This document shows, piece by piece, positions 2,211 to 61,388 of a DNA stretch of 64,000 bases. The notes below the pieces were generated by a model. The model was not told where the DNA came from. It worked only from the letters and a program-made list of their open reading frames with translations, and made no database searches. The stretch comes from Desulfomonilia bacterium. GTDB taxonomy: Bacteria > Desulfobacterota > Desulfomonilia > UBA1062. Both the position numbers and the translations under genes were made by a program. Every line of letters begins with the position of its first letter. Within the stretch, counting starts at the first letter, position 1. Location: NCBI GenBank assembly GCA_036567785.1, contig DATCTV010000021.1:1-64000 (forward strand), given 5' to 3'.

Positions 2211-3911
2211 ATGACAGAAGGTGCTTCAAAAATCTTAAAATGGCTTGTTCTGTTTATAATCCCGCTTCTGATATATATTGCCTCGTTGCCCGCGATTCCG
2301 CTTATTGAGCCTGATGAAGGTCGTTACAGCCTGATTCCTCAGGAGATGATTCAGACCGGAGACTATGTAACTCCGAGACTGAAGGGTGTCGATTACTTTG
2401 AAAAACCGGTCCTCGATTACTGGGCGACAGCTGTTTCATTTAAAATATTCGGGGAAAATGCCTTTGCCTCCAGGCTATTCGTGGCCCTTTGCGCCTGGGG
2501 CTGCATCATGCTTGCCTATAGGATCGGCAGACGTTTCCATGACGAAAAGACCGGGATTTTTGCTGCGGCTCTGCTTTCCACGACTATATATCATTTTGTA
2601 ATGGGCAGAGCCCATGTCCTTGACATGCCGCTTACATTCTTTGTCTCAATGGGCATATGGTCATGCTACAGGTTTTTTGAGGACGAACGCCGCAAACGGA
2701 TATGGCTTTATCTCGCGTATTTTTTTGCAGGACTGGCCTTTTTGTCAAAAGGCCTCATCGGTGTTGTTTTTCCTTTTACAATAGCCTTTTTCTGGCTTGT
2801 CTTCAGAAAACGATTCAGGGATATATTCAGGCTGATTTCTCCGGCAGGATTGATCATACTGTTGCTGGTGACCGGCCCGTGGCTTTACCTTGTACAGAAG
2901 GCTAATCCTGATTTTTTCAACTTCTTTTTTATTCATGAGCACCTGCAGAGATTTACAACAAAGATTCACAACAGGTATGAACCTTTCTGGTTCTTTATTC
3001 CTGTCCTGATTGGCGGCTTCATACCCTGGCTGGGTTATCTGCCCCAGGCGATCAAATATATGAGGCCCAGAATCGGTTTTATCTTTAAAAAGGATGAAAC
3101 AGCTTTTCTCCTTACATGGGCCGGATTTGTTTTCCTGTTCTTTTCAGCCTCCTCATCCAAGCTTGTGCCATACATTGCACCTGTTTTCATACCGCTTTCG
3201 GTTATGCTCGGGCATATATTCAGACAGGGGGACGATGCCCTGAGGCAAGGCAGTCATGTTACTACGGGCATAATAGCATCGTCTGCGGTCTGGCTGCAGT
3301 CAGCGGCCATAGGGACGGGGATAGTATTCCTGCCGCTCTTCGATAAGGGAAGCCTTATATCGATGAGCCGGTGGCTGCCATATGTAATTGTCCCTGTCAT
3401 CATGCTCCTGTGCCTGACTTTCCTGCCCTCAATGGTAAGGAAAAGACTGCGGCAGGGATGGTTTTTCAGCATTTATATTTTCTCGGCAGTGTTCTTTCTC
3501 TCGCTGCTTGTGCCTGCGGCAAAATATGTTACGCCGTACAAATCCGCCTTGCCTATTGTCGAGGCCATCAGGGAGCATGTACCCGAAGGCAGCGTTCCCG
3601 TTCAGTTCAAGATGAGCAATTACGGCATCGACTTTTATACGCGCATGAAAACGCCTGTAGTCGATGATTATGGCGAGCTTGATTATGGTGTAGCCAAGCT
3701 TTCGAATGAGGAGAAGATAAGACGCTTTCCGTCAAGCCGGGATTTCTTCGAACAGTATAAAAAATCAGGCGAAGAATGGTGCGTTACTGACGACATATAC
3801 AAGGTTGACATCCTGAAAGAGAAGTCTCCCGCCGCAGAAGTCCTCTGGCAGAACAGGGAATACTTCCTCATACATATGAAAAAAGGGACATCAATAGGCG
3901 GAAAACCATGA
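2211..3911 (+). CDS. ArnT/PMT-like membrane glycosyltransferase (GT-C)
   Basis: This integral membrane protein of about 566 aa resembles ArnT/PMT_2 enzymes, which move a sugar from an undecaprenyl-phosphate donor to a lipid or protein acceptor on the periplasmic face. The first loop after TM1 carries EPDEGRY, the acidic motif expected at the active site. Eleven or so hydrophobic segments follow, then a soluble C-terminal tail of about 120 residues. The frame is open from a TTG at 2175, with AGGAA only 4 bases upstream. I prefer the ATG at 2211 because it leaves a normal short cytoplasmic N-terminus before TM1. The MoxR-like gene follows 60 bases later. Acceptor and sugar cannot be told from sequence. 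Confidence 0.85.
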   Translation: MTEGASKILKWLVLFIIPLLIYIASLPAIPLIEPDEGRYSLIPQEMIQTGDYVTPRLKGVDYFEKPVLDYWATAVSFKIFGENAFASRLFVALCAWGCIMLAYRIGRRFHDEKTGIFAAALLSTTIYHFVMGRAHVLDMPLTFFVSMGIWSCYRFFEDERRKRIWLYLAYFFAGLAFLSKGLIGVVFPFTIAFFWLVFRKRFRDIFRLISPAGLIILLLVTGPWLYLVQKANPDFFNFFFIHEHLQRFTTKIHNRYEPFWFFIPVLIGGFIPWLGYLPQAIKYMRPRIGFIFKKDETAFLLTWAGFVFLFFSASSSKLVPYIAPVFIPLSVMLGHIFRQGDDALRQGSHVTTGIIASSAVWLQSAAIGTGIVFLPLFDKGSLISMSRWLPYVIVPVIMLLCLTFLPSMVRKRLRQGWFFSIYIFSAVFFLSLLVPAAKYVTPYKSALPIVEAIREHVPEGSVPVQFKMSNYGIDFYTRMKTPVVDDYGELDYGVAKLSNEEKIRRFPSSRDFFEQYKKSGEEWCVTDDIYKVDILKEKSPAAEVLWQNREYFLIHMKKGTSIGGKP

Positions 3912-3974
3912 TATTGAAACACCCCCTTATGTGTGTTATGCCGCATGAAATCAAAGTTCTGTATGGAGACAACG

Positions 3975-4808
3975 ATGGGAAAAGACTCATTTACCGGAAC
4001 AAAATCATATGTCCTTGATCCAGAACTTGCACGCATAGTCAATGCATCAATCAGGCTTGAGATGCCGCTACTCCTCAAAGGTGAACCCGGTACCGGCAAA
4101 ACACTGCTTGCATATGCCATTGCGGAAAATCTGGGCATGCCGCTTATCATCCTGAACGTTAAGTCGAGTATGAAGGCGGTCGAGGCGCTTTATCAGTACG
4201 ATACCCTGACGCGCCTCAATGACAGCCGTTTTGGTGATTCGTCACGTGATGTAAGCAGCATTGAGGACTATATAAAAATGGGAAAGATAGGACAGGCCTT
4301 TACAGCCGACAGCCGCGTCGTCCTGCTAATAGACGAGATCGACAAGGCCGATACAGACTTTCAGGATGACCTGCTGGATGTGCTTGACCAGATGAGTTTT
4401 GATATAATCGAAATCGACAGGACTATTAAAGCGAAAAACCGGCCTATCATTATCATTACATCCAACGCCAAGAAAGATCTTTCGGATCCGTTTCTCGGGC
4501 GATGCATCTTCCATCATATAGCGTTTCCAGATGCAGATATGATGAGAAAGATAGTGCTCGCACACTTCCCTTCAATCGAAAAAAAGATAAGCGAGGCATG
4601 CATAGAGGCTTTTTACAGGCTGAGGGAGGTAAAAGGCATCGAGAAAAAGCCCGCCACGCGCGAACTCATAAACTGGATACGCATCCTTCTCATGGATAAG
4701 GAATTCGATACACAGTACCTTGCAAAAAGGGATGTCCCGTACCTTGGCGTTCTGTTCAAGAAAAGCGAAGACCTGAAACTTGCCCAGAGGTACACGGGCG
4801 GGTACTAG
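3975..4808 (+). CDS. MoxR-family AAA+ ATPase
   Basis: This AAA+ ATPase of 277 aa has Walker A GEPGTGKT near the N-terminus and Walker B LLIDEIDKAD, followed by an arginine-bearing LGRC segment and a C-terminal lid. Family members act as chaperones that insert metals or remodel a VWA-domain partner. The partner is the very next gene, 5 bases downstream, and the two are almost certainly co-translated. The open frame begins at 3933, but the ATG at 3975 has GGAG at proper spacing and starts just before the conserved part. The substrate of the pair is unknown; no dehydrogenase or other obvious metalloenzyme client lies beside it. Confidence 0.9.
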   Translation: MGKDSFTGTKSYVLDPELARIVNASIRLEMPLLLKGEPGTGKTLLAYAIAENLGMPLIILNVKSSMKAVEALYQYDTLTRLNDSRFGDSSRDVSSIEDYIKMGKIGQAFTADSRVVLLIDEIDKADTDFQDDLLDVLDQMSFDIIEIDRTIKAKNRPIIIITSNAKKDLSDPFLGRCIFHHIAFPDADMMRKIVLAHFPSIEKKISEACIEAFYRLREVKGIEKKPATRELINWIRILLMDKEFDTQYLAKRDVPYLGVLFKKSEDLKLAQRYTGGY

Positions 4809-4813
4809 ATAAC

Positions 4814-6004
4814 GTGTTCTCGGAATTTTTCTATACGCTCAGAGACCGGGGCATACCGGTCGGTCCAACAGGGTTTCTGAGGCTTCAGGAGGCCCTTGAC
4901 AAAGGTCTTATACTGAGCCTTGACGACCTGTACTGCATCAGCCGCGCGGTCATGATCAAGAGCGAACGCTATTTCGACATGTATGACAGGGTGTTTGCAC
5001 ACCACTTCAAAGGGGCAGATCTCCCGGAAGACCTTGCCGACGAGATAGAAAAGGCAATAGCCGCGATGCTCGAAGAATGGCTGAAAGACCCGGTCAAAAT
5101 GGCGGAATTTCTGGGAATGAGCGTGGAAGACGTCAAGAAGCTTACGCCTCAGGAACTTGAGGAATACTTCAGGAAAAGACTTGAAGACCAGAAGGAGCGC
5201 CATGACGGAGGTAACCGCTGGATAGGCACGGGCGGGACATCACCTGTGGGCCATTCGGGATTTCATCCGGGCGGCATGCGCGTGGGCGGTGCATCACGAA
5301 ACCATTCCGCGGTAAAGGTAGCGCTTGAAAGGCGATATCGTGATTATACCCAGGATCAGCGCCTCGGGCCCGCACAGATTTCAGATGCATTGAAACGCCT
5401 GAGATATATGGTGCCTGCGGGTCCCAAGGACAGCCTTAATGTTGAAAAAACGATAAAGGAAACCATGAAGAATGCAGGCGAAATAGAGATAGTATTTGAT
5501 AGGAGACTCAAGGACAAACTCAAGGTCATTCTTATGATAGACAACGGCGGCTACTCTATGGACCCCTATGTAAACGTGGTGCAGGTACTGTTCAATCACG
5601 CCAAATCACAGTTCAAGGACGTGAAGTTTTATTTCTTCCACAACACCGTGTATTCACGTGTCTGGGCGGATCCCCAGCGAATGAGCAAGGCATTTGCTAT
5701 CGAGGACTTTGCACGGATGGACCCTGAGACCAGGCTAATCATGGTTGGAGATGCGTCAATGGCGCCATACGAACTTTACAGCCGCTACGGCAGCATCTAT
5801 TACGGTTCCCAGATGCAGCGACCAAGTATCGACAGCCTCGTATTTCTTGCAAAAACCTTCAGACATAGTGTATGGCTTAACCCCAAGCACGAATACACCT
5901 GGCCCGGCACTGAGACCATAATGGCGATTTCCGAGATATTCCCGATGTACGAACTGACGCTTGACGGTCTCGACGATGCCGTAGGCCATCTGATGAAGAA
6001 ATGA
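4814..6004 (+). CDS. CoxE-like VWA-domain protein, MoxR partner
   Basis: This 396-aa protein has an N-terminal helical region, a Gly/Arg/His-rich linker near residues 130-175, and a C-terminal von Willebrand A fold. It matches the CoxE-like VWA proteins that pair with MoxR ATPases. The metal-site motif is DNGGYS, not the classic DxSxS, so the MIDAS site is altered. As I recall, this variant is shared within one subfamily. Other VWA features are present: YFFHNTVY in a core strand and VGDASMAPYEL further on. Translation starts at GTG, 5 bases after the ATPase stop. A tRNA gene begins only 8 bases after the stop codon. Function in maturing a partner is inferred from the pairing. Confidence 0.85.
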   Translation: MFSEFFYTLRDRGIPVGPTGFLRLQEALDKGLILSLDDLYCISRAVMIKSERYFDMYDRVFAHHFKGADLPEDLADEIEKAIAAMLEEWLKDPVKMAEFLGMSVEDVKKLTPQELEEYFRKRLEDQKERHDGGNRWIGTGGTSPVGHSGFHPGGMRVGGASRNHSAVKVALERRYRDYTQDQRLGPAQISDALKRLRYMVPAGPKDSLNVEKTIKETMKNAGEIEIVFDRRLKDKLKVILMIDNGGYSMDPYVNVVQVLFNHAKSQFKDVKFYFFHNTVYSRVWADPQRMSKAFAIEDFARMDPETRLIMVGDASMAPYELYSRYGSIYYGSQMQRPSIDSLVFLAKTFRHSVWLNPKHEYTWPGTETIMAISEIFPMYELTLDGLDDAVGHLMKK

Positions 6005-6011
6005 CGGATAT

Positions 6012-6088
6012 GCGCTCGTAGCTCAGTTGGATAGAGCGTAGGCCTCCGGAGCCTAAGGTCGCAGGTTCGATCCCTGTCGAGCGCGCCA
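6012..6088 (+). tRNA. tRNA-Arg (anticodon CCG)
   Basis: A full cloverleaf can be drawn: acceptor GCGCTCG with CGAGCGC, D-stem GCTC/GAGC, anticodon stem TAGGC/GCCTA with loop CTCCGGA, T-arm TTCGATC, discriminator G and encoded CCA. The loop gives anticodon CCG, which reads CGG. It lies 8 bases after the VWA gene, too close for its own intergenic promoter, so its promoter is either inside that gene or it is processed from a read-through transcript. Confidence 0.97.
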
Positions 6089-6098
6089 GTTTCGATTA

Positions 6099-7220
6099 TC
6101 AGTCCAGTCGTTTATGGAACCTGAGAGTGGCGCTTGCAAAAAGGATCAGACCCAGTATGCCGAGTGCCAGAAACTGCTTCCATAGCACCTCAATTCCTAC
6201 ACCCTTTAAAAATATCCCCCTGATAATGACCAGGAAATACCGTAGAGGATTGAGATACGTGAGCCATTGAACGGGTTCCGGCATGTTGCTTATGGGAAAT
6301 ACAAAACCGGAAAGCATGAACACCGGCAGCACCACGAAAAATGTAGACATCATGGCCTGCTGCTGCGTCCTGCTGACCGTTGAAATAAAAAGACCCATTC
6401 CGAGCGAACTCAGAAGGAACAGGATCGATGCCGCGAAAAGAAGCCATGCGCTTCCCGCCATGGGGACGTCGAACCAGTATTTTGCAAAGGCAATGACTAT
6501 CCACATCTGTATGAGCGAGATAATTATAAAGGGTATGGTCTTTCCCATGATAAATTCGGAGGATTTTATCGGAGTTACTATCACCTGCTCCATCGTCCCG
6601 GATTCTTTTTCGCGGATGATGGCAATGGATGTAAACAGAAGACTCAGTAGCATGATAAGAAAGGCCACAATCCCGGGCACGAAGAAATGGCGGCTGTTGA
6701 TATTGGGGTTGTACCATTGCCTCAGGCGCATATCCACCTGCGCGAACTGCATATTCTGTGGATATATGCGCTTCATCATCATGCGGTTGTACTGGTCAAG
6801 GACCATTACCGTATAGGATATTCTGATAAATGCCATGTTGCTCATGCACCCGTCGGCGATTATCTGGACGTCTGCGGTATTCCCCTTTTTCATCTTTTCG
6901 CTCATATCAGGCGCGATATTAATCCCTATGTCCACCTTGTTGTCCATAACCAGCCTCCCGAGAGCCTTTTCACTCTCGGGAAAGTGAGTGATCCTGAATA
7001 TTTTATTGCTGCTGAATGCCTCGATGAATTCCCTGCTTTCATTTGTACGGGCCTGGTCGAATACGGCTACCTGAATATTGTTGATGTCGAAATTGACGAC
7101 ATAACCGAATACAAGGATCTGAACGAGCGGAGCTATTATCAGAAGCGGCCTGTTCTTTCTGTCACGGAAGAGCTCTATGAACTCCTTCCTTACAAGCTCC
7201 CTTATCCTGAGCCAGTTCAC
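6099..7220 (-). CDS. ABC-2 type export permease (YhhJ/YbhR-like)
   Basis: This 373-aa inner-membrane permease is the last gene of the export operon. It has one N-terminal membrane helix, a periplasmic domain of about 130 residues, and a five-helix ABC2_membrane block starting near FVPGIVAFL. The conserved REKESGTMEQ loop, which contacts the ATPase, is present. Its GTG start overlaps the stop of the upstream permease by 4 bp, with GGAGG just upstream. It should pair with the neighbouring permease to form the membrane channel of a tripartite exporter. It converges on tRNA-Arg, and I see no terminator in the 10 bases between. Confidence 0.92.
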   Translation of the reverse strand: MNWLRIRELVRKEFIELFRDRKNRPLLIIAPLVQILVFGYVVNFDINNIQVAVFDQARTNESREFIEAFSSNKIFRITHFPESEKALGRLVMDNKVDIGINIAPDMSEKMKKGNTADVQIIADGCMSNMAFIRISYTVMVLDQYNRMMMKRIYPQNMQFAQVDMRLRQWYNPNINSRHFFVPGIVAFLIMLLSLLFTSIAIIREKESGTMEQVIVTPIKSSEFIMGKTIPFIIISLIQMWIVIAFAKYWFDVPMAGSAWLLFAASILFLLSSLGMGLFISTVSRTQQQAMMSTFFVVLPVFMLSGFVFPISNMPEPVQWLTYLNPLRYFLVIIRGIFLKGVGIEVLWKQFLALGILGLILFASATLRFHKRLD

Positions 7221-8350
7221 AACCCCTCCTTTTTGAGAAGCAGATAATTGATCGAGGTTAATATTACAGGGATTGCAGCAAGGACTGCATAATCGGTCCA
7301 GACTGCAGAAAAGCCAACATCCCTTAGGAAGATGTCACTCAGAATGCTGATGTAATATTTTGCAGGCACAAAATATGTTATCAGCTGAAGGGCTTTCGGC
7401 ATATTGGTGATCGGAAATACAAAATTTGAAAGCAGGAACGAGGGGAGGTAGGTGATAAGTATGGCCGCCTGGTTTGCAACAAGCTGGTTCTTGATGGAGG
7501 TGGAAAGCAGCAGTCCTATCGATATAGCTACAAAGACATAAAGGGTTGATGCAAACATCATGATCCAGAAACTTTCCTTCATGACCACGTTGAACAGGAT
7601 CTGACCCATGAATATCGAAACCAGGACGTCGATAATGGCTATGAGATAATACGGGACAGCCTTTCCGATCATGAACTCCATTGCTCCAAGAGGAATGGAC
7701 TTTAACGTTTCCATCGTGCCGTTTTCGTATTCCCTTGCAACCACCAGGGATGTCAGCAGGGTCCCTGCGATGATAATTATTATGGCTATAATACCCGGGA
7801 TTATGAAATTTCTACTCAGGAGGTTCTCATTGAACCATACTCTCAGACATCCGTTTACAGGCGGGTCCATAGCCTCCAAACCAGACCTGTTAAGGAAGTC
7901 CGCCAGGATAACCTGGTTGTAGGCATTGATAAAACCATTCACGTATCCCTTGGAGATGTTGGCAAAATTGGGATCGCTGCCGTCGAGTATAACCTGCATT
8001 GGCGCCGGTCTGTCAGACCTCAGGTTTTTCGTGAAACCGGGCGGAATGACGAAGGCAAGAGATGCCCTGCCATGATCGAGATAATCGTCGATTTCACCGG
8101 AGGAATCGATCGATGCTGTTATGGTGAAATATCGTGAGGCCCCCAGTTCCCTGATGAAATCGCGACTGATGTCAGTCCTGTCCTGGTCGATCACTATTGT
8201 TTTTATATGCTCGACATCGAGACTCAGGGCATAGCCGAAGAGAAGTATCAGAAGAACAGGGATGGCGAATGCCATTGCCAGACTCCTGTAATCTCTTGCA
8301 AGATGCAGGAATTCATTCATCATTACGGCATTGATCTTTCTGATGTTCAT
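7217..8350 (-). CDS. ABC-2 type export permease (YbhS-like)
   Basis: This is the second 377-aa ABC-2 permease, paralogous to the following gene. It has the same layout: TM1 near residue 25, a large periplasmic loop, then a C-terminal membrane domain beginning IIPGIIAIIII. The ATPase-contact loop reads AREYENGTMETL. Its ATG overlaps the stop of the upstream ATPase gene by 4 bp (ATGA), which indicates translational coupling. Two distinct permeases beside two ATPases suggest a heterodimeric channel, as in the E. coli YbhFSR system. The exported compound is unknown; relatives move drugs or other amphiphiles. Confidence 0.92.
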   Translation of the reverse strand: MNIRKINAVMMNEFLHLARDYRSLAMAFAIPVLLILLFGYALSLDVEHIKTIVIDQDRTDISRDFIRELGASRYFTITASIDSSGEIDDYLDHGRASLAFVIPPGFTKNLRSDRPAPMQVILDGSDPNFANISKGYVNGFINAYNQVILADFLNRSGLEAMDPPVNGCLRVWFNENLLSRNFIIPGIIAIIIIIAGTLLTSLVVAREYENGTMETLKSIPLGAMEFMIGKAVPYYLIAIIDVLVSIFMGQILFNVVMKESFWIMMFASTLYVFVAISIGLLLSTSIKNQLVANQAAILITYLPSFLLSNFVFPITNMPKALQLITYFVPAKYYISILSDIFLRDVGFSAVWTDYAVLAAIPVILTSINYLLLKKEGL

Positions 8351-9102
8351 GAAGGGCCACCTGCCATAAGCCTTATGAATGCGTCGTTAAGCGTGGCCCC
8401 CGGCTTTTTAGGGCATGTCCTTTCTATTATCTCTTCCGGAGAGCCCTCCGCAACAATATTGCCCAGGTTTATCATGGCGATCCGCTCGCAGTTGAGGGCC
8501 TCGTCCATATAATGAGTGGTTACGAATACGGTGATGCCTTCTCCAGAAAGCTTGCGGATGAATTCCCAGAAATGCCTTCTTGTGATCGGATCAACCCCCG
8601 ATGTGGGCTCGTCCAGAAATATTATGCCCGGTTTGTGGAGCATGGCGCACCCCAGTGCGAGTCTCTGTTTGAAGCCTTGAGGCAGGTCTTTTGTCAGTCT
8701 GTTTCTGAACTCTGAAATCCTGGCCATGTCGAGGACCCATTGAGTTCTTTCCTTCCAGAGGCTTTCGGGAACATTATAGACGCCGAGGTAAAACCTGATG
8801 TTTTCAAAAGGGGTCATATTTTCATAAAGTGAAAACTTCTGCGACATGTAGCCTATCGAGCTTTTGATTTCATCCGGTTCCTTTATCACATCATATCCTG
8901 CTACACTGCCGCCTCCGGACGTGGGTTTCAGAATTCCGCAGAGCATGCGTATAGTTGTCGATTTGCCCGAACCGTTCGAGCCCAGGAAACCGAAAATTTC
9001 CCCCTTTCTGACTGAAAAACTTATGCGGTTTACGGCAATGAACTTGCCGAAACGCTTTTCAAGGCTGTTCACGACAATTGAATTATCTTCCGATGTCGTC
9101 AC
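8347..9102 (-). CDS. ABC transporter ATPase with degenerate signature motif
   Basis: This 251-aa nucleotide-binding subunit has Walker A GSNGSGKST, Walker B IIFLDEPTSGVDP and an H-loop TTHYMDEA. The signature motif reads LPQGFKQ where most ABC proteins have LSGGQ. The other ATPase in this operon has LSGGMKQ, so the pair is asymmetric. E. coli YbhF carries two ATPase halves in one chain; here the halves appear as separate genes. The ATG lies 20 bp inside the end of the upstream ATPase gene, which implies coupled translation. Confidence 0.93.
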   Translation of the reverse strand: MTTSEDNSIVVNSLEKRFGKFIAVNRISFSVRKGEIFGFLGSNGSGKSTTIRMLCGILKPTSGGGSVAGYDVIKEPDEIKSSIGYMSQKFSLYENMTPFENIRFYLGVYNVPESLWKERTQWVLDMARISEFRNRLTKDLPQGFKQRLALGCAMLHKPGIIFLDEPTSGVDPITRRHFWEFIRKLSGEGITVFVTTHYMDEALNCERIAMINLGNIVAEGSPEEIIERTCPKKPGATLNDAFIRLMAGGPS

Positions 9103-9850
9103 CGGCTATCTCCCCGTCGATTTCCGCTATACGCATTATCATGGCATCTTCCAGACTGGCATATCGGGCCTGGATATCCGCAGGCGTTGCAACTTGAAGG
9201 ACTTTTGACTTATGCATCATTGCAAGCGTGTCGCATTTTTCACCTTCATCGAGGTATGCGGTTGAAATAATTATGGTTTTACCCTGCCTTTTCATTTCAT
9301 TGAGAATGTCCCAGAATTCCTGTCTCGATACCGGATCGACACCGTTTGTAGGTTCATCGAGGATCAGCACATCAGGTTCGTGTACAAGCACGCATGCAAG
9401 GCCCAGTTTCTGCTTCATCCCGCCGGATAGATTGCCTGCCTGCCTGTCTAGATATGGCAGGAGATTGGAAAAGCCCAGATATTTTTCCATCCGGGATTTT
9501 CTTTCCTGACCTCTGATCCCGAAAATGTTCATGAAGAAATTAATGTTTTCAAGGACGGTCAGGTCCTGATAAAGACCGAAACGCTGGGGCATATAACCGA
9601 TTATCTCCTTTACTTTACGCTTGTCAGCAACAACATCGAGGCCGGCTATTTTCATCCTGCCTTCAGATGGTTTTATCATTGTTGCAAGCATGCGGAGCAG
9701 GGTCGATTTGCCGGCGCCGTCCGATCCAACAAGACCGAATACCGAACCCCTTGCGGCTTCAAGGCATGCATCATCCACGGCCTTGACCTCCCCGAAGCTC
9801 ATCGTTACATGCTCGATCTTGATATAGGAATCATCCATGATATCTGCCAT
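9083..9850 (-). CDS. ABC transporter ATPase (first of two)
   Basis: This ATPase subunit of about 255 aa has Walker A GSDGAGKST, signature LSGGMKQKLGL and Walker B VLILDEPTNGVDP. The H-loop position reads STAYLDEGE, so the usual His after the second Thr/Ser is replaced by Ala-Tyr, an uncommon switch region. The frame is open from a GTG at 9886, but the ATG codons at 9850 or 9838 fit the family N-terminus better. Either way the gene overlaps or abuts the hlyD-like stop at 9874. It probably forms a heterodimer with the next ATPase and powers the two downstream permeases. Confidence 0.9.
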   Translation of the reverse strand: MADIMDDSYIKIEHVTMSFGEVKAVDDACLEAARGSVFGLVGSDGAGKSTLLRMLATMIKPSEGRMKIAGLDVVADKRKVKEIIGYMPQRFGLYQDLTVLENINFFMNIFGIRGQERKSRMEKYLGFSNLLPYLDRQAGNLSGGMKQKLGLACVLVHEPDVLILDEPTNGVDPVSRQEFWDILNEMKRQGKTIIISTAYLDEGEKCDTLAMMHKSKVLQVATPADIQARYASLEDAMIMRIAEIDGEIAGDDIGR

Positions 9851-40075: not shown

Positions 40076-40448
40076 GGTCGAAGCAGAACAGGTGGCCGCC
40101 GGCGCTTTACGCGCGGGAGGAAAGTCCGGGCTCCACAGGGCAAGGGTGGTCGTTAACGGCGACCGGGGGTGACCCCAGGGAAAGTGCCACAGAAAACAAA
40201 CCGCCCGTCTATATGGCGGGTAAGGGTGAAACGGCGAGGTAAGAGCTCACCGGTTCCCCGGGTGACCGGGGAAGCCAGGTAAACCCCACCCGGAGCAAAA
40301 CCAATAGAGGGACATAAGGGGCTGCCCGTTCCGTTCCTGGGTAGGTTGCTCGAGGCGCCGGGCAACCGGCGTCCTAGATGAATGGCCACTATCCGCCGTC
40401 GGGTAACCGCAGGCGGAAACAGAACCCGGCTTATGAACTGCTTCGGCC
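40076..40448 (+). ncRNA. rnpB: RNase P RNA, bacterial class A
   Basis: This is the catalytic RNA that matures tRNA 5' ends. The universal core elements are present in order: GAGGAAAGTCCGGGCTCC, ACAGAAAACAAACCGCC, GGTGAAACGGCGAGGTAAGA, TAGATGAATGGCCACT and ACAGAACCCGGCTTAT. The ends pair to form helix P1: GGTCGAAGCAG (40076-40086) with CTGCTTCGGCC (40438-40448). ATTTTT follows and completes a terminator. Length (about 373 nt) is normal. Several frames drawn through it are spurious. Confidence 0.97.
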
Positions 40449-54250: not shown

Positions 54251-56158
54251 TTAACTATCAAAGACCACCGCCGTAGTAATAAAGCACGAACATCCGCCGC
54301 CGCCACCGTCACTTTCTTCGGCCGATGCGGAATCATCTTCAGAACTTGTCGAGGGATCGTTCATGGTCGTGAAAGACCATATAGGAGATGCAATATATCC
54401 GGCTTCGGCGTCATTATACACGACCAGCCAGTTGTATACTGTCCCGTATTCAAGGCCGGCCGGTACGAATGATTCCACACGCAGGCCTGTTGCTGTTGCA
54501 CTTGAACATATGACACACGAATGTTCTTTGCCGTAAAAGATATACAGATCATATGTCCCCGAGCCCCCTTGCGAGACAGCACCCTGCCAGGAAAGTCTTA
54601 TCATTGCCGGATCGATGCCGACCGATCCTGAAACAGGCGAGGGATTCGCCGGCCCGGCAGCAAGCGCAGATGTCGACGATGAACAGTCTGACCTGAAGGA
54701 GTAAATGGTACCGTTTTCAAGAATCGGTATTTCAAAGGGCACCTCATCTCCACATCTGGCATTGATGTTCTCTAAACTCAGAACCGCCTTACTCCAAATG
54801 TTGAGCCCGGATACATTCTCGGTGTCACCCTTCAGTTCGACGTCGAAATTCGTTATCACCATTTCGCCTTCAAGCGAGCCCATTCTCGCCACGGCTTTTC
54901 CCAAAGCTTTAATGAAAAGATTATTTATCGAAACGTCAGCCATATTTAAAACTGTCACAAAGGCATTGGTTACATTAATTGAAACGTTGTTGCTGTAAAA
55001 TGTACCTTCTGAGATAGTTAATTCCGCCTTGCTGGGGGACCCATGAGAATATCCGCTGGAATTAATGCTCATGTTGTTGGTAGATGCTTCGCCGCCGGAG
55101 AAACACGTCTGAACCATACCGCCGTAATTTGCATTGATGTTGAAATTTCCGATGAACATATTGTCATGATTAATAAGTCTGACGATTCCCGACAATCCAT
55201 TGGCTATTGCTGAAAGATTCTTGAAACTGGATTTTTTTCTATTTTCGATCGTAGCGGATGGATAAACTCCTGAAGCATCGACTTGAGATTTTATATAACT
55301 ATTGGAAATTTCTAGAATCGAATCGTTTTCAAGAAGAAATCCTGCAATATATGATTCAACATTAAGATTTGAAATCATGAGTGAACCGTTGTTTATGAGT
55401 TTGGAACCCTTGAAAGTTCCGGTCTGAACAAAGTGTGCATTGCCGATAATGGTTTCTGCGCTGCTTGAGAATATAAGGGAAGATTTGACAAGCTCATACG
55501 AGACATCACCAGCATTGAAAGTACCGCCGGAAAGATAAAAAACAAGGGTATTCTTGTCAGGATTCGTTCCCGATACAGAAGCGGAAAGATTACATATGTT
55601 AAAATTCCCTGCCCGCTGTGAAAATGAAAACGCCCCGTCTTTGATGCAGTTGACCTTGAGTTGTCCGGTCGGGATATCTATTGTTCCCGAGTTGTTCAGG
55701 CTTATTTCGGAATTTTCCGAATCAGCTTCAAAGAAGGTTTTTCCCCCTCCGGCAAGAAAAACAAAGGTTATCTCGCCGTAATTATCAATCGTTATTCTGC
55801 CTGCCTCACCGGCAATGAAGGTCTGGCTTAAGTCAAGGCTGTTCATGATTATACCCTGGCTTTTATTTTTGATTTCAACTGAGCCGTATTCGCAAGTTAT
55901 TGTTGCGTCATCCATCAAAAGCTTGCCGCTGTTTTCTATAGAAAATGCAGGCTTGACATCAACGCTTCCTTTTACCGAAAGAGTTCCGCCGAGAATGGCC
56001 GTTTCACCTTCTTTTATGACAAGGCCATCGTCATTTTCGATTACCAGCGTTTGTCCCGGACCCGGAAGATCGGAAATATTCAGGGCAGAAGCTCTATCTG
56101 GAAACAATAAAATAACGCTGGCAACCAGGATTGGAAAAAGATTAAAGAATTTTGCCAT
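54251..56158 (-). CDS. Secreted beta-helix-like protein with truncated CFI-type tail
   Basis: This 635-aa exported protein has a signal peptide at about 1-25 ending ASA. Residues 40-500 are dense in Asn, Ser, Gly and Ile with repeated short strands (for example AILGGTLSVKGSVDV), as in right-handed beta-helices or adhesins. A fibronectin-like domain follows (about 515-605), then a Ser/Glu/Asp linker and GGGGGCSCFITTAVVFDS. The CFI part resembles the start of the CFI-box C-terminal sorting domain, but it stops 5 or so residues in. The ATG at 56158 has GAGGAGG ahead. Function is not known; surface adhesion is a guess. Confidence 0.75.
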   Translation of the reverse strand: MAKFFNLFPILVASVILLFPDRASALNISDLPGPGQTLVIENDDGLVIKEGETAILGGTLSVKGSVDVKPAFSIENSGKLLMDDATITCEYGSVEIKNKSQGIIMNSLDLSQTFIAGEAGRITIDNYGEITFVFLAGGGKTFFEADSENSEISLNNSGTIDIPTGQLKVNCIKDGAFSFSQRAGNFNICNLSASVSGTNPDKNTLVFYLSGGTFNAGDVSYELVKSSLIFSSSAETIIGNAHFVQTGTFKGSKLINNGSLMISNLNVESYIAGFLLENDSILEISNSYIKSQVDASGVYPSATIENRKKSSFKNLSAIANGLSGIVRLINHDNMFIGNFNINANYGGMVQTCFSGGEASTNNMSINSSGYSHGSPSKAELTISEGTFYSNNVSINVTNAFVTVLNMADVSINNLFIKALGKAVARMGSLEGEMVITNFDVELKGDTENVSGLNIWSKAVLSLENINARCGDEVPFEIPILENGTIYSFRSDCSSSTSALAAGPANPSPVSGSVGIDPAMIRLSWQGAVSQGGSGTYDLYIFYGKEHSCVICSSATATGLRVESFVPAGLEYGTVYNWLVVYNDAEAGYIASPIWSFTTMNDPSTSSEDDSASAEESDGGGGGCSCFITTAVVFDS

Positions 56159-56534
56159 GACCGCCTCCTCTTTCATTTTTTAGAAACCTGAGAGAAGCAC
56201 CGATAAAGACACTTGATATATTTTGAAAATAGTCATTGAACATGAATTATAAAAAAGAAAATGGTTTCAAAAAAATTATAAGTTTTACGGCGAATAAATC
56301 AAGCATTAGATTTTAATGTCACCGTATTTGCAATAGATAAAACCTGGTTCAGGGTATTTATCCTTGCCTGAATGAAGTTTTCAATTCCTTACCGTATGAG
56401 CTGTCGGACAGGTCGTTGCGCGCAAAGAGAGTGACTGCTGTTTTCATGTATATCGATATGAACTTCTGACCTGTCCTCGACATATGATCCCATATCCGGA
56501 GTTATTCAGATCAATACGCGCGGATGCTTGTTTA
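56159..56534. other. AT-rich spacer between two minus-strand genes
   Basis: This stretch of about 375 bases should hold the promoter of the beta-helix protein gene. It is AT-rich near 56200-56330 and has no clear -35/-10 pair, repeat or RNA fold that I can support. Confidence 0.4.
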
Positions 56535-57377
56535 TTATATATTTTCCCACCTGAACAGCACACTCAAGGCTTGATGATCCGACAGCTGGTTTCCTTTGCT
56601 GTCAACGAATGTGTCGGATTCATCCGAAGAAGCGAGTGGTGTCAGGAAAACCGTGCTGTTGCTCCGATAGAGGACCTTGTCAATCCTATCACCCGCAATA
56701 CCGAGTTCTATTCGCGCATCGCTGAGCCCTGTGCTTGAAATAAGTCTTGTCAGGTTGATGTTATCGTTAACATTTGAGTAGCTCATGTTGAAATCCCCGC
56801 AGACTATTACCGCCCGGCCTGCTGAGAAGGTATTTATTTTATCGATAAGCTGTTCAACCTGAACGATTCTGGCTTTATTGTCACCATCCGCTCCGCCGGC
56901 ATCCATGTGCAGGTCGTAAATATCCACGAATACGCCGCTGGATATTTCATAACGGGCGAACATGAAACCTTTGGGCGTCAGACAGTCATTGGCATAGCCG
57001 AAAACTCCATGGCATGCCTCCCAAGTAACCCTCTGGAGGTTGGTGAAACTGCAATAAGAGAACGAATTCAACCCATCGCCCACTGTTCCGTGGAAAGAAT
57101 CAAACTCGGATTCGTACGGATGACCGTCTCCATACCTGAGATTACAGTGATACGAAAAATCCTCCTGAACAAGGGCGATATCAAAAAGGTTCAGCTTCTG
57201 TCCTATCTGGGGCATGTTGACTATGGGATTGCTTGAAGAAATGCCCTGCGGCAATCCGGCGACATTGTATGACAGGATGGTGAATTCATTGTCATCGGTT
57301 ACTTTCTTATATGTGCCGGGAGCATTACAGGAAAAAAGGAAGACTGCGCAGACAATGATACCAAGGACATTTTTCAT
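56535..57377 (-). CDS. Exported EEP-family phosphodiesterase (sphingomyelinase-like)
   Basis: This 280-aa protein of the endonuclease/exonuclease/phosphatase fold probably hydrolyses phosphodiesters outside the cytoplasm. The lipobox-like LFSC at residues 14-17 suggests a lipoprotein, though Phe at -2 is unusual. Active-site motifs are in order: SYNVAG, LVQEDF, DLHMDAGG, CGDFNMS and LSDHQAL. The length and DLHMDAG form are closer to bacterial sphingomyelinase-like members than to DNases. GAGGAGGGG precedes the ATG. It is transcribed away from the C45 lipoprotein gene. Confidence 0.85.
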   Translation of the reverse strand: MKNVLGIIVCAVFLFSCNAPGTYKKVTDDNEFTILSYNVAGLPQGISSSNPIVNMPQIGQKLNLFDIALVQEDFSYHCNLRYGDGHPYESEFDSFHGTVGDGLNSFSYCSFTNLQRVTWEACHGVFGYANDCLTPKGFMFARYEISSGVFVDIYDLHMDAGGADGDNKARIVQVEQLIDKINTFSAGRAVIVCGDFNMSYSNVNDNINLTRLISSTGLSDARIELGIAGDRIDKVLYRSNSTVFLTPLASSDESDTFVDSKGNQLSDHQALSVLFRWENI

Positions 57378-57762
57378 AACCCCTCCTCAAAAACAATTAA
57401 TCCATAAAATATCACAAACCGGAATAAACATCAAAAAGAACAAGTCTTGTTTACATTCTTCATTGTTTCTTATTCTGGAAAAAGAGTTCCCTCCGGGAGG
57501 AAAAAAAAGTGCATTACAGCGCTGAATCAAATCCTAACGCCTTTACAATCAAATACTTATATGGTTAATTATGGGCATAGTATTTGCTTTTGGTTTTATA
57601 TATTTTGAAATGCCGGGAATATCCTAAAACGGGGAAATTCCTCAGGATTATTCAAGGTAATGTTGCTGGATCGTTTGCTTAAGTGAATCATAAGGGATTG
57701 ATTCCTTATAAATGCATTGTGATGCATATTGGGAAGATTAAAAGATAACTTAGGAGGTAGCA
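57378..57762. other. Divergent control region, EEP / C45 genes
   Basis: This stretch of about 385 bases separates divergent secreted-protein genes. It contains one well-formed sigma-54 promoter match for the plus strand (separate entry). I see no other repeat or RNA structure. Confidence 0.5.
57574..57588 (+). promoter_or_regulatory. Sigma-54 (RpoN) promoter candidate
   Basis: GGCA, six bases, TTGCT: the -24 GG (57574-57575) and -12 GC (57586-57587) have the exact 10-bp spacing required by RpoN. Only the base before GG (G for T) departs from the core consensus. The start would be near 57599, leaving a 164-base leader before the C45 gene. An enhancer-binding protein would be needed; none is encoded nearby. 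Confidence 0.6.
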
Positions 57763-59739
57763 ATGAGAAAACAATGGCTGTTAATCTTTCTCGTCATCGG
57801 AATGTTCCTGAGTGTTTCCGGGTGTGCTTCCAAAAGCGATGATGACAGCGTTTCGTCAACCGGGTCAGAACAGACAAAAATTACCACGTTGCAGGATATC
57901 ATGGCCGACCAGGGGCTGGAGTTGATTAAAGAAACGGAAGTGGGCGGTGACAGGGGTTACCTGATGAAGTACACTGGAAAATACTCCGAAGGTGTAAATT
58001 CCAAAGGAATATCAAGCGGACAGTTTCCCAAATATTGCATGGTGCTGACCGGCAGCGCCTACAACATGGGATATCAGGCCGCCACGCTGAGGCCTGAGCA
58101 GGGTTACAGCATGCTCACCGATTACATGAAAAGGGTGGCTCTGCAGCAATTCGGCATGCTGGGGATCAATCTGCCTCAGGAGGGTGATACTGCTAACGAA
58201 ATCTACAACATCATGTACGATACCATCCTCGACATAGTGGCCCTAATGAAAAAGGACATTCCGTCAAACCTGCGCAAGGAGATGCAGGGATTCGCCGACG
58301 GTATGCAGGCCGCCGGATATACGACAGACCCGAATACCGGCAGGAAAATCGATTATAACCATCTTCTCGTAATAAACGAGGCCGTCGACAGTACGTATTT
58401 CTTCCTGGCGGCTGTTCTGGGCTATGCCAAAGTGACCAATGAGAACAAGGCGGTAATCGCCGAGTGCCGCAACGCCTTTCTGAAGATACTGGTCAAAGCG
58501 AGCAACTCTTCTAGTAACGGGGATGAATCCGTAACCGAACTTATTGAGAAGGCGAATGAGAATTTTACATCAAGTGACAATCTGCTTCGCTACGGTTGCA
58601 ATGAATTAGTTGTCAGCGGTAACGCCACTGCAACCGGCGAAACCTATCACGGCCGTGACTTCATGTTTTCGACAGGGGACATATATCAGGATGCCGCCGC
58701 CATGGTTGTCTATCTGCCTGACGAGGGATATCCGTTCGTAACGGTTTCAGTTCCCGGATTCATAGGTCAGAGTGTAGGCCTCAATATCAAAGGACTTTCT
58801 GTCGGACAGGATGTGTGTCTGGTCTCGTTCATGGGTAAAACGCCAGGTGTAGGCAGCATGTTCATGGTGCGAGACATGGTGCAGAAGACCTCCAATATTT
58901 CGGAAGCAGTCGAGCTTGTCAGGAATACGACGCGCGGCGTTTCCTGGATATATTTCGTTGCCTCGGATGAAGCCGACATCCGTTACGGTCATGGCGCGGA
59001 ACTCAGTGCAGTATGTAACCAGCGCGATGATGAGATCGGCGACGGCATTGATACCCTTCCTCAATGGATAAAGCTGCTTTATTCGGGCTATACAAGCATA
59101 CTTGATAAACTGGATGCAGATGAGCTGACGGCCGGCGGAGATATAGACCGGGGTGTAATGGTCAGGGGCGAGGCGTATGAGTATCCGGCTGATGATAAAT
59201 TTGCTTCACCCGACTTCTCGCTTGATGATTACAGCTCATATAAGGACTATTACAACAAGGGCTTCAGGTTCACCGCGCAGAAAGAGGCTTATAAAGACGC
59301 CCTTGCAGCCACTAACCACTATATCACGCCGCGCATGCGCATGATGCAGTTCCAGCCTCTGATCGATCTTATCTATGCCGTAAGCGGGAACCTGGCGGAA
59401 TCTGTATGGCGATACGAGAACATGATCTCGGAAATCAACGAATACCATGGCAGCATCGAATACTTCGGAGATAATCCCGATGCCCCGGCAGTGGGTTCCG
59501 TAGGATGGATGATAGATTTCCTGAATACCCAGCGCAGCTATCCGTGGTTCTACCGGCATCAGACAAGCGAAGGAAATTATCAGTATCCTGTAAACACATG
59601 GGTTGATGGACACCATGCCGCCATGAATAATACCCGGCGAGAGATGAGGGCACTTTACGGATATATGACCGACCCGTGGGTGGGAATCAAACTTCAGCCT
59701 TTCGTCGACTGGTATTACGGGGCGGATAAGAAGTTCTGA
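57763..59739 (+). CDS. C45-type Ntn-hydrolase lipoprotein
   Basis: This 658-aa lipoprotein has a lipobox VSGC with acylated Cys21. The catalytic domain matches autoproteolytic acyltransferase/hydrolases of peptidase family C45 (phospholipase B-like): Cys279 in YGCNELVVSGNAT is the likely nucleophile exposed by self-cleavage, followed by GRDFMFSTGD and VSVPGFIGQSVGLN. The region before it (about 40-278) would be the released propeptide or a separate chain. Substrates in this family range from beta-lactam amides to lipids. AGGAGG precedes the ATG, and the promoter looks sigma-54 dependent. A strong hairpin follows. Confidence 0.87.
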   Translation: MRKQWLLIFLVIGMFLSVSGCASKSDDDSVSSTGSEQTKITTLQDIMADQGLELIKETEVGGDRGYLMKYTGKYSEGVNSKGISSGQFPKYCMVLTGSAYNMGYQAATLRPEQGYSMLTDYMKRVALQQFGMLGINLPQEGDTANEIYNIMYDTILDIVALMKKDIPSNLRKEMQGFADGMQAAGYTTDPNTGRKIDYNHLLVINEAVDSTYFFLAAVLGYAKVTNENKAVIAECRNAFLKILVKASNSSSNGDESVTELIEKANENFTSSDNLLRYGCNELVVSGNATATGETYHGRDFMFSTGDIYQDAAAMVVYLPDEGYPFVTVSVPGFIGQSVGLNIKGLSVGQDVCLVSFMGKTPGVGSMFMVRDMVQKTSNISEAVELVRNTTRGVSWIYFVASDEADIRYGHGAELSAVCNQRDDEIGDGIDTLPQWIKLLYSGYTSILDKLDADELTAGGDIDRGVMVRGEAYEYPADDKFASPDFSLDDYSSYKDYYNKGFRFTAQKEAYKDALAATNHYITPRMRMMQFQPLIDLIYAVSGNLAESVWRYENMISEINEYHGSIEYFGDNPDAPAVGSVGWMIDFLNTQRSYPWFYRHQTSEGNYQYPVNTWVDGHHAAMNNTRREMRALYGYMTDPWVGIKLQPFVDWYYGADKKF

Positions 59740-59776: not shown

Positions 59777-59807
59777 GGCGCTGATAAGAATCTGGCTTAT
59801 CAGCGCC
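59777..59807 (+). terminator. Strong hairpin after the C45 lipoprotein gene
   Basis: GGCGCTGATAAG (59777-59788) pairs perfectly over 12 bp with CTTATCAGCGCC (59796-59807) around a 7-base loop. The following TTGCCGTTT is a poor T-tract, but the stem is strong and could serve both convergent genes. Confidence 0.75.
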
Positions 59808-59876: not shown

Positions 59877-61388
59877 CTATTGAGATGTTTTTTCCATATG
59901 GCGCTCGAATGCCGCTACATATTCCTCAAGGCCTGTGAATGGGGTTACCGGAATCTGCTCCGGATGCGAGCTGAATCTTTCTGCCAGCATCTTTGGTGAA
60001 ACTCCTTCATGTGCAGCTAAACCCAGTATGGCGGCGCCCAGGGCTGTGGCCTCGTTCAGGTCGGTGCACATGACAGGCGATTCCGGGAACAGGGCCGCTA
60101 TCAGACGGGTAAAGAGCGTGTTGTGCGAGAATCCGCCTGCAATAATGGCTCTTTTACCGGGCGCTATGCCTGCACGCAGCATGGCCTTTCGTGTATGCAG
60201 TGCCATGCTTAGCATCAGGATATTGTAAGTCCGCTCATAATCATTAATGAACGCAGGGCCCTGGCCTGAGAAAACCTGCTCCAGCGTAAAGATTTTATCT
60301 CCTTCGATGAAACGCGCTGGCGAGTGCATATACATGCCGAAAGGCACTATTGCAGGCAGGATGAACTCATTGCCCCGCTTCAAGATATCCTCGATGAGTT
60401 CAGGGTTGAAGTCGGGATGATCACGTCTGCCATGGGTTCCCTCCAGGAATCCCATGTACAGGTCAAATTCCAGCCCTGCAACAAAAAGAGCCGTTTTGAA
60501 AACGCCGCCGAAGCCGTCCAGGTTAAAATAAACCATTTCGCCGATTTCATCTTCGGTCAACCGGGGTTCAGGAACGGGATGCATGACCACGCACATGGAG
60601 CCGGTGGAAACGAGCACGAAATCATGAGGCTCCCTGATGAGAAATGGCACCATGGCGGCATTGGAGTCATGGACGCCCATGGTTACGATAACATCGTCGG
60701 ACAAGCCTGTCTGCCGGGCGATCTCCGGCTTGAGCGTACCCAGAATTTCCCAGGAATTGGAGACTTTTTGAGGTATCAGATCCTTTACGCCGAGGCTCTC
60801 CCTTACCTCTGAGAAGGTCATCTTTTCGAAGTCCCACAATCCCGTGTGCGTCCCAATATAAGTTATGTCCATTCCGGTTTTTCCGGTAAGGAGAAACCCG
60901 TAATATTGCGGCAGGCCGAGGATGGTTCTGGTACGGGCGAACCCTTCGTGATAGTGAGTCTTAACATAGTATATCCCGCGTGCGATCACGCTAAGGTACG
61001 GCATGCGGGGGGTGGCCATGCGGCGCTGGATGTTGCGCGGGTCGCCGATGAATGCGTCGAAATCGGTATGGAAGGCTTCGCCAGGGTCGGTCGAACCTGA
61101 GAGCGCAGGTACGGCCAGGTTACCGTTCTCGTCCAGACAGACGAAAGTGCCGCCGTAGGTCGATATGGAAATGACCTTGATGTTGTAGCGCTTGGCCATA
61201 TCTGTCAGCGAATCAAGAAAAAATCTTGTTACGGCCTCAACAGGTTCATGGTTTTCCGTCCCTTGTGACACATCATCGATGGTGGCAAAGACGCTGTCCA
61301 CCTGATTCAGGTTCATATCATAGATGAGAAGCTTCTTGTTTGTGCGGCCTACGTCAAGTACAGCAATACAGCTTGCATTCTTACTCAT
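59877..61388 (-). CDS. FGGY-family carbohydrate kinase
   Basis: This 503-aa sugar kinase opens IAVLDVGRTNKKLLIYD (phosphate-1) and has GVHDSNAAMVPF and, near the C-terminus, IIAGGFSHNTLFTRLIA. These are FGGY features; it is closest in feel to L-fuculo/L-rhamnulo kinases, but the sugar cannot be assigned. It lies 81 bases downstream of the IlvD-like dehydratase on the same strand. GGGGG precedes the ATG. Confidence 0.9.
   Translation of the reverse strand: MSKNASCIAVLDVGRTNKKLLIYDMNLNQVDSVFATIDDVSQGTENHEPVEAVTRFFLDSLTDMAKRYNIKVISISTYGGTFVCLDENGNLAVPALSGSTDPGEAFHTDFDAFIGDPRNIQRRMATPRMPYLSVIARGIYYVKTHYHEGFARTRTILGLPQYYGFLLTGKTGMDITYIGTHTGLWDFEKMTFSEVRESLGVKDLIPQKVSNSWEILGTLKPEIARQTGLSDDVIVTMGVHDSNAAMVPFLIREPHDFVLVSTGSMCVVMHPVPEPRLTEDEIGEMVYFNLDGFGGVFKTALFVAGLEFDLYMGFLEGTHGRRDHPDFNPELIEDILKRGNEFILPAIVPFGMYMHSPARFIEGDKIFTLEQVFSGQGPAFINDYERTYNILMLSMALHTRKAMLRAGIAPGKRAIIAGGFSHNTLFTRLIAALFPESPVMCTDLNEATALGAAILGLAAHEGVSPKMLAERFSSHPEQIPVTPFTGLEEYVAAFERHMEKTSQ

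Follow-up and report, generated by a model that had tools for sequence, protein, structure and literature searches.

The locus and its genes

The window, by which we mean the whole 64,000-nucleotide stretch of DNA analysed, carries a gene for a C45/IAT-like Ntn-hydrolase lipoprotein, which runs from an ATG at 57763 to 59739 on the forward strand and, according to model and alignment matches, encodes a precursor of 658 residues. Its N-terminus (MRK...FLSVSGC21) possesses a basic n-region, a hydrophobic stretch and a lipobox, V-S-G-C21, that is read directly from the sequence; the predicted lipoprotein signal peptide occupies 57763..57825 (+), and the column of Cys21 is invariant in nine of nine aligned members. 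Divergent from the hydrolase lies a gene for an EEP-fold lipoprotein (56535..57377, − strand; PF22669, 27.6 bits; PF03372, 26.2 bits) with a lipoprotein-type N-terminus of its own, LFS-C17. This is the exported neighbour that an earlier, sequence-only reading of the DNA had described, and it is real.

Downstream, an FGGY-kinase gene (59877-61388, − strand) converges on the hydrolase. Since the EEP gene diverges upstream and the kinase gene converges downstream, the hydrolase gene stands alone, and a 12-bp stem between the two convergent genes (59777..59807), terminator-like on the − strand, together with the divergent upstream gene, suggests that it is monocistronic. Elsewhere in the window, a class A RNase P RNA was found at 40080-40448 (+) with 305 bits.

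Family assignment of the hydrolase

The protein sits at the border of the existing family models, matching PF03417 with 23.2 bits, equal to the cut-off, and NF040521 with 80.4 bits, below the cut-off of 85; among seven relatives scanned with NF040521, four scored above 85 and three below. It belongs to a subfamily of which the genome encodes five members, beside at least one ordinary C45 protein; a single-protein search of the genome contigs returned no relative, and an alignment-based search returned five. A subfamily profile detected members in 6 of the 24 family genomes at an E-value of 1e-20, and at 1e-25 in 5 of 395 genomes drawn from the phylum, the source genome included. The more distant members L012 and L253 have no clear lipobox.

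In a profile-profile comparison, the subfamily matched ordinary C45 proteins with a probability of 99.9 and an E-value of 4e-36. When 11 ordinary C45 proteins and 6 of the subfamily were combined into a mixed profile of 17, it matched, among solved structures, the penicillin acyltransferase 2x1d (4.9e-16), NAAA (3.5e-8) and acid ceramidase (4.9e-6), with a weak match to choloylglycine hydrolases (0.0025), whereas the subfamily profile alone gave no relevant match to a solved structure. An AlphaFold2 model of the window protein built with six homologous sequences reached a mean pLDDT of 43, too poor for use. The earlier description of a self-processing hydrolase lipoprotein is in keeping with two features that can be read directly, the lipobox and a sequence signature typical of self-processing C45-like enzymes, and the protein probably has C45-like enzyme activity, though it belongs to a diverged subfamily.

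Isopenicillin N/acyl-CoA:6-APA acyltransferase (IAT; C45; 2x1c, 2x1d; PF03417; NF040521), which the mixed profile matches best among solved structures, resembles the window protein in plan, as both have a pro-domain followed by a nucleophilic Cys, together with the Asn and Arg motifs. The window protein differs in being about 300 residues longer than the 357-residue fungal IAT chain, in adding a signal peptide and lipobox, and in reading R-D-F-M where 2x1d reads Q-N-W-D, its residues having been mapped to IAT through the mixed-profile match. NAAA and acid ceramidase (6dxw, 5u81) are likewise Ntn-Cys amidases, acting on fatty acyl amides, and are matched by both the mixed and the ordinary C45 profiles; their match is weaker than that of IAT, and their conserved Asp is missing in the window protein. 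The C45 fold and the sigma-54 control of exterior genes are already known. On the other hand, the lipid-anchored R-D-F-M subfamily, with its partial sigma-54 control, is a variant absent from the limited collection of literature searched for C45 together with lipoprotein, sigma-54 or sphingomyelinase.

The promoter element and the predicted leader

Upstream of the hydrolase, a sigma-54 (RpoN) −24/−12 promoter element, GGCATAGTATTTGCT, is read directly at 57574..57588 (+): G57574-G57575 form the −24 GG and, after ten nucleotides, G57586-C57587 form the −12 GC, which gives an exact GG-N10-GC (from 57573 the DNA reads GGGCATAGTATTTGCT). The element, GGCAT-N5-TTGCT, ends up about 174-175 nt upstream of the ATG of the 658-residue lipoprotein. 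The sequence-only reading had reported GGCA-N6-TTGCT with exact RpoN spacing 165 bases before the gene; both word and spacing are present, and the distance agrees with a transcription start that the −24/−12 spacing would place near 57599, followed by a leader of about 164 nt. This predicted leader (57599..57762, +) includes an AGGAGG ribosome-binding site at 57752-57757. Its fold (57598-57790) is not unusual (z −1.5, with 15 of 200 shuffles equally good), no Rfam family matched at gathering score within 57599-57762, and the leaders of two sigma-54 paralogues gave no convincing alignment.

Sigma-54 promoters follow the consensus TGGCACG-N4-TTGCW, to which the window site has three mismatches. 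In the accessible part of PMC12316311 the consensus is given as TGGCAC-N5-7-TTGCT; the window site reads GGGCAT, so that the T before GG and the final C of TGGCAC are both missing. Among the 28 intergenic GGCAT sites of the genome, a G before GG is seen in two, including this one. A scoring matrix derived from 29 further sites in the genome, whose own scores range from 14.1 to 24.5 bits, assigns the element 16.0 bits, low within that range; because the training sites had themselves been picked by this word, such scores compare regions and are no proof of function.

A perfect inverted repeat, AACAAG-T-CTTGTT, lies at 57439..57451, preceding the −24 element by some 123-135 bases, and is a weak candidate for an activator site. 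The other promoters do not share it, and half of the upstream regions examined (17 of 34) contain a perfect 6-bp palindrome; a palindrome and k-mer comparison of these 34 regions revealed no common activator site, AT-rich words aside.

Sigma-54 sites in the window, the genome and its relatives

Within the window alone, sigma-54-like sites are at chance level. Allowing at most one mismatch, 45 sites were found against 36 expected, a number that 10 of 100 shuffles reach, and at most three mismatches to the longer consensus gave 91 against 89 expected, reached by 41 of 100 shuffles. The site before the hydrolase exceeds chance only once genome-wide and comparative evidence is added.

The genome encodes RpoN (one match, E 5.7e-63) and 14 strong central domains of enhancer-binding proteins, none of them on the contig of the window. 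It contains 123 GGCA-N6-TTGCW words, 45 of which begin with GGCAT. Genes were called here as longest open reading frames with a start rule, rather than taken from annotation. By these calls, 28 of the 45 GGCAT-N5-TTGCW sites are intergenic, and 23 are followed within 250 nt by a start on the same strand. The control GGCA[ACG]-N5-TTGCW was intergenic in only 7 of 68 sites (Fisher p 6e-9; 68 of 78 such sites were read). When the spacer of the GGCAT word was one base shorter (4) or longer (6), 1 of 13 and 2 of 33 sites were intergenic, respectively (46 of 57 read), so that right and wrong spacing differ in intergenic share by 28/45 versus 3/46 (p 1e-8). The raw word count shows no excess, with 45 at the right spacing versus 57 for both wrong spacings together, and support for the sites therefore lies in their position only. 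From a control rate of about 9% intergenic (10/114), we estimate that about 2 of the 28 intergenic GGCAT sites are false.

Of the 23 placed GGCAT sites, 19 lie 29-91 nt from the ATG, and the rest at 175, 185, 6 and 12 nt. The sites 6 and 12 nt from their starts are implausibly close and probably reflect start mis-calls, and the 175 nt of the window site and the 185 nt of the paralogue C30 are long among placed sites. By type, the 113 sites read comprise 28 intergenic GGCAT, 5 GGCAC, 1 GGCAA and 1 GGCAG, and GGCAT rather than the published GGCAC seems to be the favoured form of the −24 element in this genome. Across three further genomes of the family, 34 of 87 sites with the same word were read, and 17 of these proved intergenic.

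Recurrence of the element before C45-like genes

Eleven upstream regions of C45-like genes were scored with the matrix, one copy in genome G001 that starts at a contig edge being left out. Five fall at 13.9-21.6 bits, namely the window gene, the paralogue C30 (16.5), two genes in genome G004 (16.8 and 21.6) and one in G001 (13.9, just below the range of the 29 sites), and six fall at or below 5.5 bits. On the tree, the window protein falls in a clade of five rows (support 100/99), three of which carry the site. The carriers do not form a single clade, requiring four changes, and 500 of 500 shuffles were as low; as the carriers are not clustered, gains and losses of the site must have occurred. 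The highest-scoring G004 gene has ordinary R-x-x-D motifs, which means that sigma-54 control is not confined to the R-D-F-M subfamily.

Two of these loci are unusual in architecture. The product of the 21.6-bit gene (L079, G004:C249), whose sigma-54 site is the best among C45-like genes, is a lipoprotein of more than 1050 residues with two C45-type domains, bearing R-G-L-D and R-N-L-D motifs and split by a stretch that resembles calcium-binding repeats. In G001, three C45-like lipoprotein genes stand in tandem on a 4.8-kb contig whose ends truncate two of them (L054, G001:C140).

The foremost alternative is that the −24/−12 match is a chance word and that an ordinary sigma-70 promoter, not recognisable by consensus, drives the gene. 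The chance-level counts in the window, the low score and long leader of the site, and its absence from three of the five subfamily members in this genome all speak for such an account. Against it stand the genome-wide position and spacing tests with the few false sites they predict, a sigma-70 scan that reported zero sites in 57378-57762, the same site in the paralogue C30 at −200 from the start versus −190 for the window gene, and the site before three C45-like genes elsewhere. We regard a chance word as rather unlikely. The sigma-54-type promoter of the earlier reading instead gains support from the position and spacing tests, from the encoded RpoN and enhancer-binding proteins, and from recurrence upstream of some related genes.

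Genes behind the sigma-54 sites

A set of 31 genes has a same-strand site at most 300 nt upstream, GGCA[ACG] sites included. It comprises a type III glutamine synthetase (GS-III), two ammonium transporters (AmtB), MotA and a FadL-type porin, as well as a PI-PLC lipoprotein, a melibiase lipoprotein, a metallophosphoesterase and two C45-like lipoproteins; the site upstream of a FadL-type gene in this genome (G000) is of the GGCAC type and lies 118 nt away. Of the 31 products behind sites, 10 bear a lipobox, compared with 11 of the 236 encoded in control stretches (p 1.5e-5), where the control began at 120 residues and the site set becomes 9 of 29 without its two products under that length. This enrichment agrees with the role of sigma-54 at the bacterial exterior, lipoproteins among it, as described in the available part of PMC3162934.

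In known exterior regulons (PMC3162934 and PMC12316311, each seen in part), nitrogen, motility and envelope or lipoprotein genes similarly stand behind −24/−12 promoters. The present genome differs in that GGCAT dominates GGCAC (28 versus 5 intergenic, among 113 read) and that lipoproteins, some of them hydrolases, are prominent; the available parts of the two papers do not name a C45 gene.

The sigma-54-linked metallophosphoesterase of L085 has the C-terminal tail CFIATAGI. A similar tail, GGGGGCSCFITTAVVFDS, ends a 641-residue exported protein encoded in the window at 54251-56176 (−), for which no Pfam or NCBIfam match was found. The two tails look like a C-terminal sorting tag, the CFI-box.

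The predicted active site and its R-D-F-M motif

Alignments place the predicted nucleophile at Cys279 (codon 58597..58599, +), which aligns to C45 nucleophiles and would become the first residue after self-cleavage between Gly278 and Cys279. A pro-domain precedes it, and Gly278-Cys279 is invariant in nine of nine sequences of alignment A1; when a distant member is added (alignment A2), the Cys stays invariant and the preceding Gly does not. Asn341 (58783..58785, +) corresponds to the Asn of the G-x-N-x-x-G motif, Asn518 (59314..59316, +) to the second active-site Asn, within a T-N-H motif, and Arg550 (59410..59412, +) to the conserved C-terminal Arg. The latter three align with N252, N341 and R367 of the protein L027 and are invariant in both sets, and Cys279, Arg298, Asn341, Asn518 and Arg550 all have invariant counterparts in the ordinary C45 set.

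The departure lies in the motif R298-D299-F300-M301 (58654..58665, +), read directly in place of the usual R-x-x-D. All 15 subfamily motifs found have Met in place of the Asp (14 R-D-F-M and one R-S-F-M), whereas all 13 others have Asp; this count covers 28 rows, three of them (L014, L020 and L253) read by eye, and leaves out a second G008 copy (R-D-F-M) and the G004 double protein.

C59 bile salt hydrolases are not known to have a long pro-domain. On a mapping onto C59 numbering that we assume to be right, the window protein keeps likely equivalents of Cys2, Arg18, Asn82, Asn175 and Arg228, and it differs in having Met at the equivalent of Asp21, besides the weak profile match. In the accessible part of PMC3289653, those five residues form the active-site set of bile salt/choloylglycine hydrolases, and this Asp, together with Arg18, is said to tune the Cys. 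The same part describes a simulation in which neutralising Asp21/Arg18 changed the barrier little.

With Met in place of the active-site Asp, activity could be lost or altered. The protein might be Ntn-like without catalysis, a binding or structural lipoprotein, and the subfamily-wide loss of an Asp that tunes the nucleophile and is kept in the other C45 motifs fits such a fate. We consider it improbable, because a decayed site is unlikely to have kept the other active-site equivalents, including Cys279 and the preceding Gly, invariant in nine aligned members, and because neutralised Asp21 had little influence on the barrier in the simulation (PMC3289653, as far as available). An active but retuned enzyme is, in our view and on that same simulation, more likely than a dead one.

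Proposed function

Overall, we think it probable that the locus encodes a lipid-anchored, self-processing cysteine Ntn-hydrolase from an apparently monocistronic gene transcribed by sigma-54 RNA polymerase. In the mechanism that we propose, an enhancer-binding protein would respond to a nutrient or envelope signal and open the −24/−12 promoter at 57574-57588. The precursor would then undergo export and lipidation at Cys21, reach the outer membrane and afterwards cut itself between Gly278 and Cys279. The free α-amino group and thiol of Cys279 could attack an amide, most likely an N-acyl amide with a long chain or some other acyl amide, and fatty acid released in this way might enter through FadL-type porins.

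The substrate in this scheme is a guess. A fatty N-acyl amide is a fair first one, since the solved kin act on acyl amides and FadL-type genes lie nearby or are co-controlled; in genome G004, two FadL/OmpP1-type porin genes follow a C45-like gene on the same strand. The neighbours of other C45-like copies point elsewhere, namely the glycoside-hydrolase-like and autotransporter-like genes that are also downstream in G004, and the symporter and S15-peptidase-like genes beside copy C23.

The sequence-only reading had taken lipid breakdown to be hinted at by the EEP neighbour, and this hint finds little support. The EEP gene is divergent, no sigma-54 site was found in its upstream region (best score −0.9 bits), and searches for the protein gave no further match in this genome and no match at all in the other 23 family genomes covered; being present in 1 of 24 genomes, it cannot form a conserved pair with the hydrolase there, and we rejected it as evidence for a partnership. 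The idea of lipid breakdown rests instead on the FadL-type genes and on the fact that NAAA and acid ceramidase are distant relatives of the hydrolase. A sphingolipid-degrading pair, in which the EEP protein would serve as the sphingomyelinase-like phosphodiesterase and its C45-like neighbour as the ceramidase-like amidase, is highly improbable: although the best solved match of the EEP protein is sphingomyelin phosphodiesterase 2 (SMPD2; E 1.2e-4, the sum of two weak stretches) and the mixed C45 profile does match acid ceramidase (4.9e-6), each EEP stretch is insignificant by itself (i-E 0.47 and 4.2), the EEP protein was found in one of the 24 genomes, the divergent genes have a sigma-54 site at only one of them, and the mixed profile matches IAT best.

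Returning to the sigma-54-controlled, lipid-anchored hydrolase, we offer a broader and distinctly speculative extension, which we would not expect to hold in full: the main output of the sigma-54 regulon could be lipid-anchored hydrolases (C45-like amidases, PI-PLC and melibiase) that feed FadL uptake at the outer membrane, with C45-like enzymes of the R-D-F-M type tuning their thiolate without the canonical Asp. If this were true, one enhancer-binding protein would switch a scavenging coat on and off. A motif at chance level in the window becomes a testable regulon, in which sigma-54 of this uncultured lineage appears to drive lipoprotein genes beside classical nitrogen genes, and the natural R-D-F-M variant offers a way to examine what the conserved Asp does in cysteine Ntn-hydrolases.

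One further C45-like copy has a neighbourhood of its own kind (L072, G000:C11). Beside it lie three lipoproteins with an M[RK]PG[ED]-type motif (3152-4234, 7221-8393 and 8474-9754), one of which carries a receptor-L domain, and an exported protein of the beta-lactamase fold is encoded at 5324-6808.
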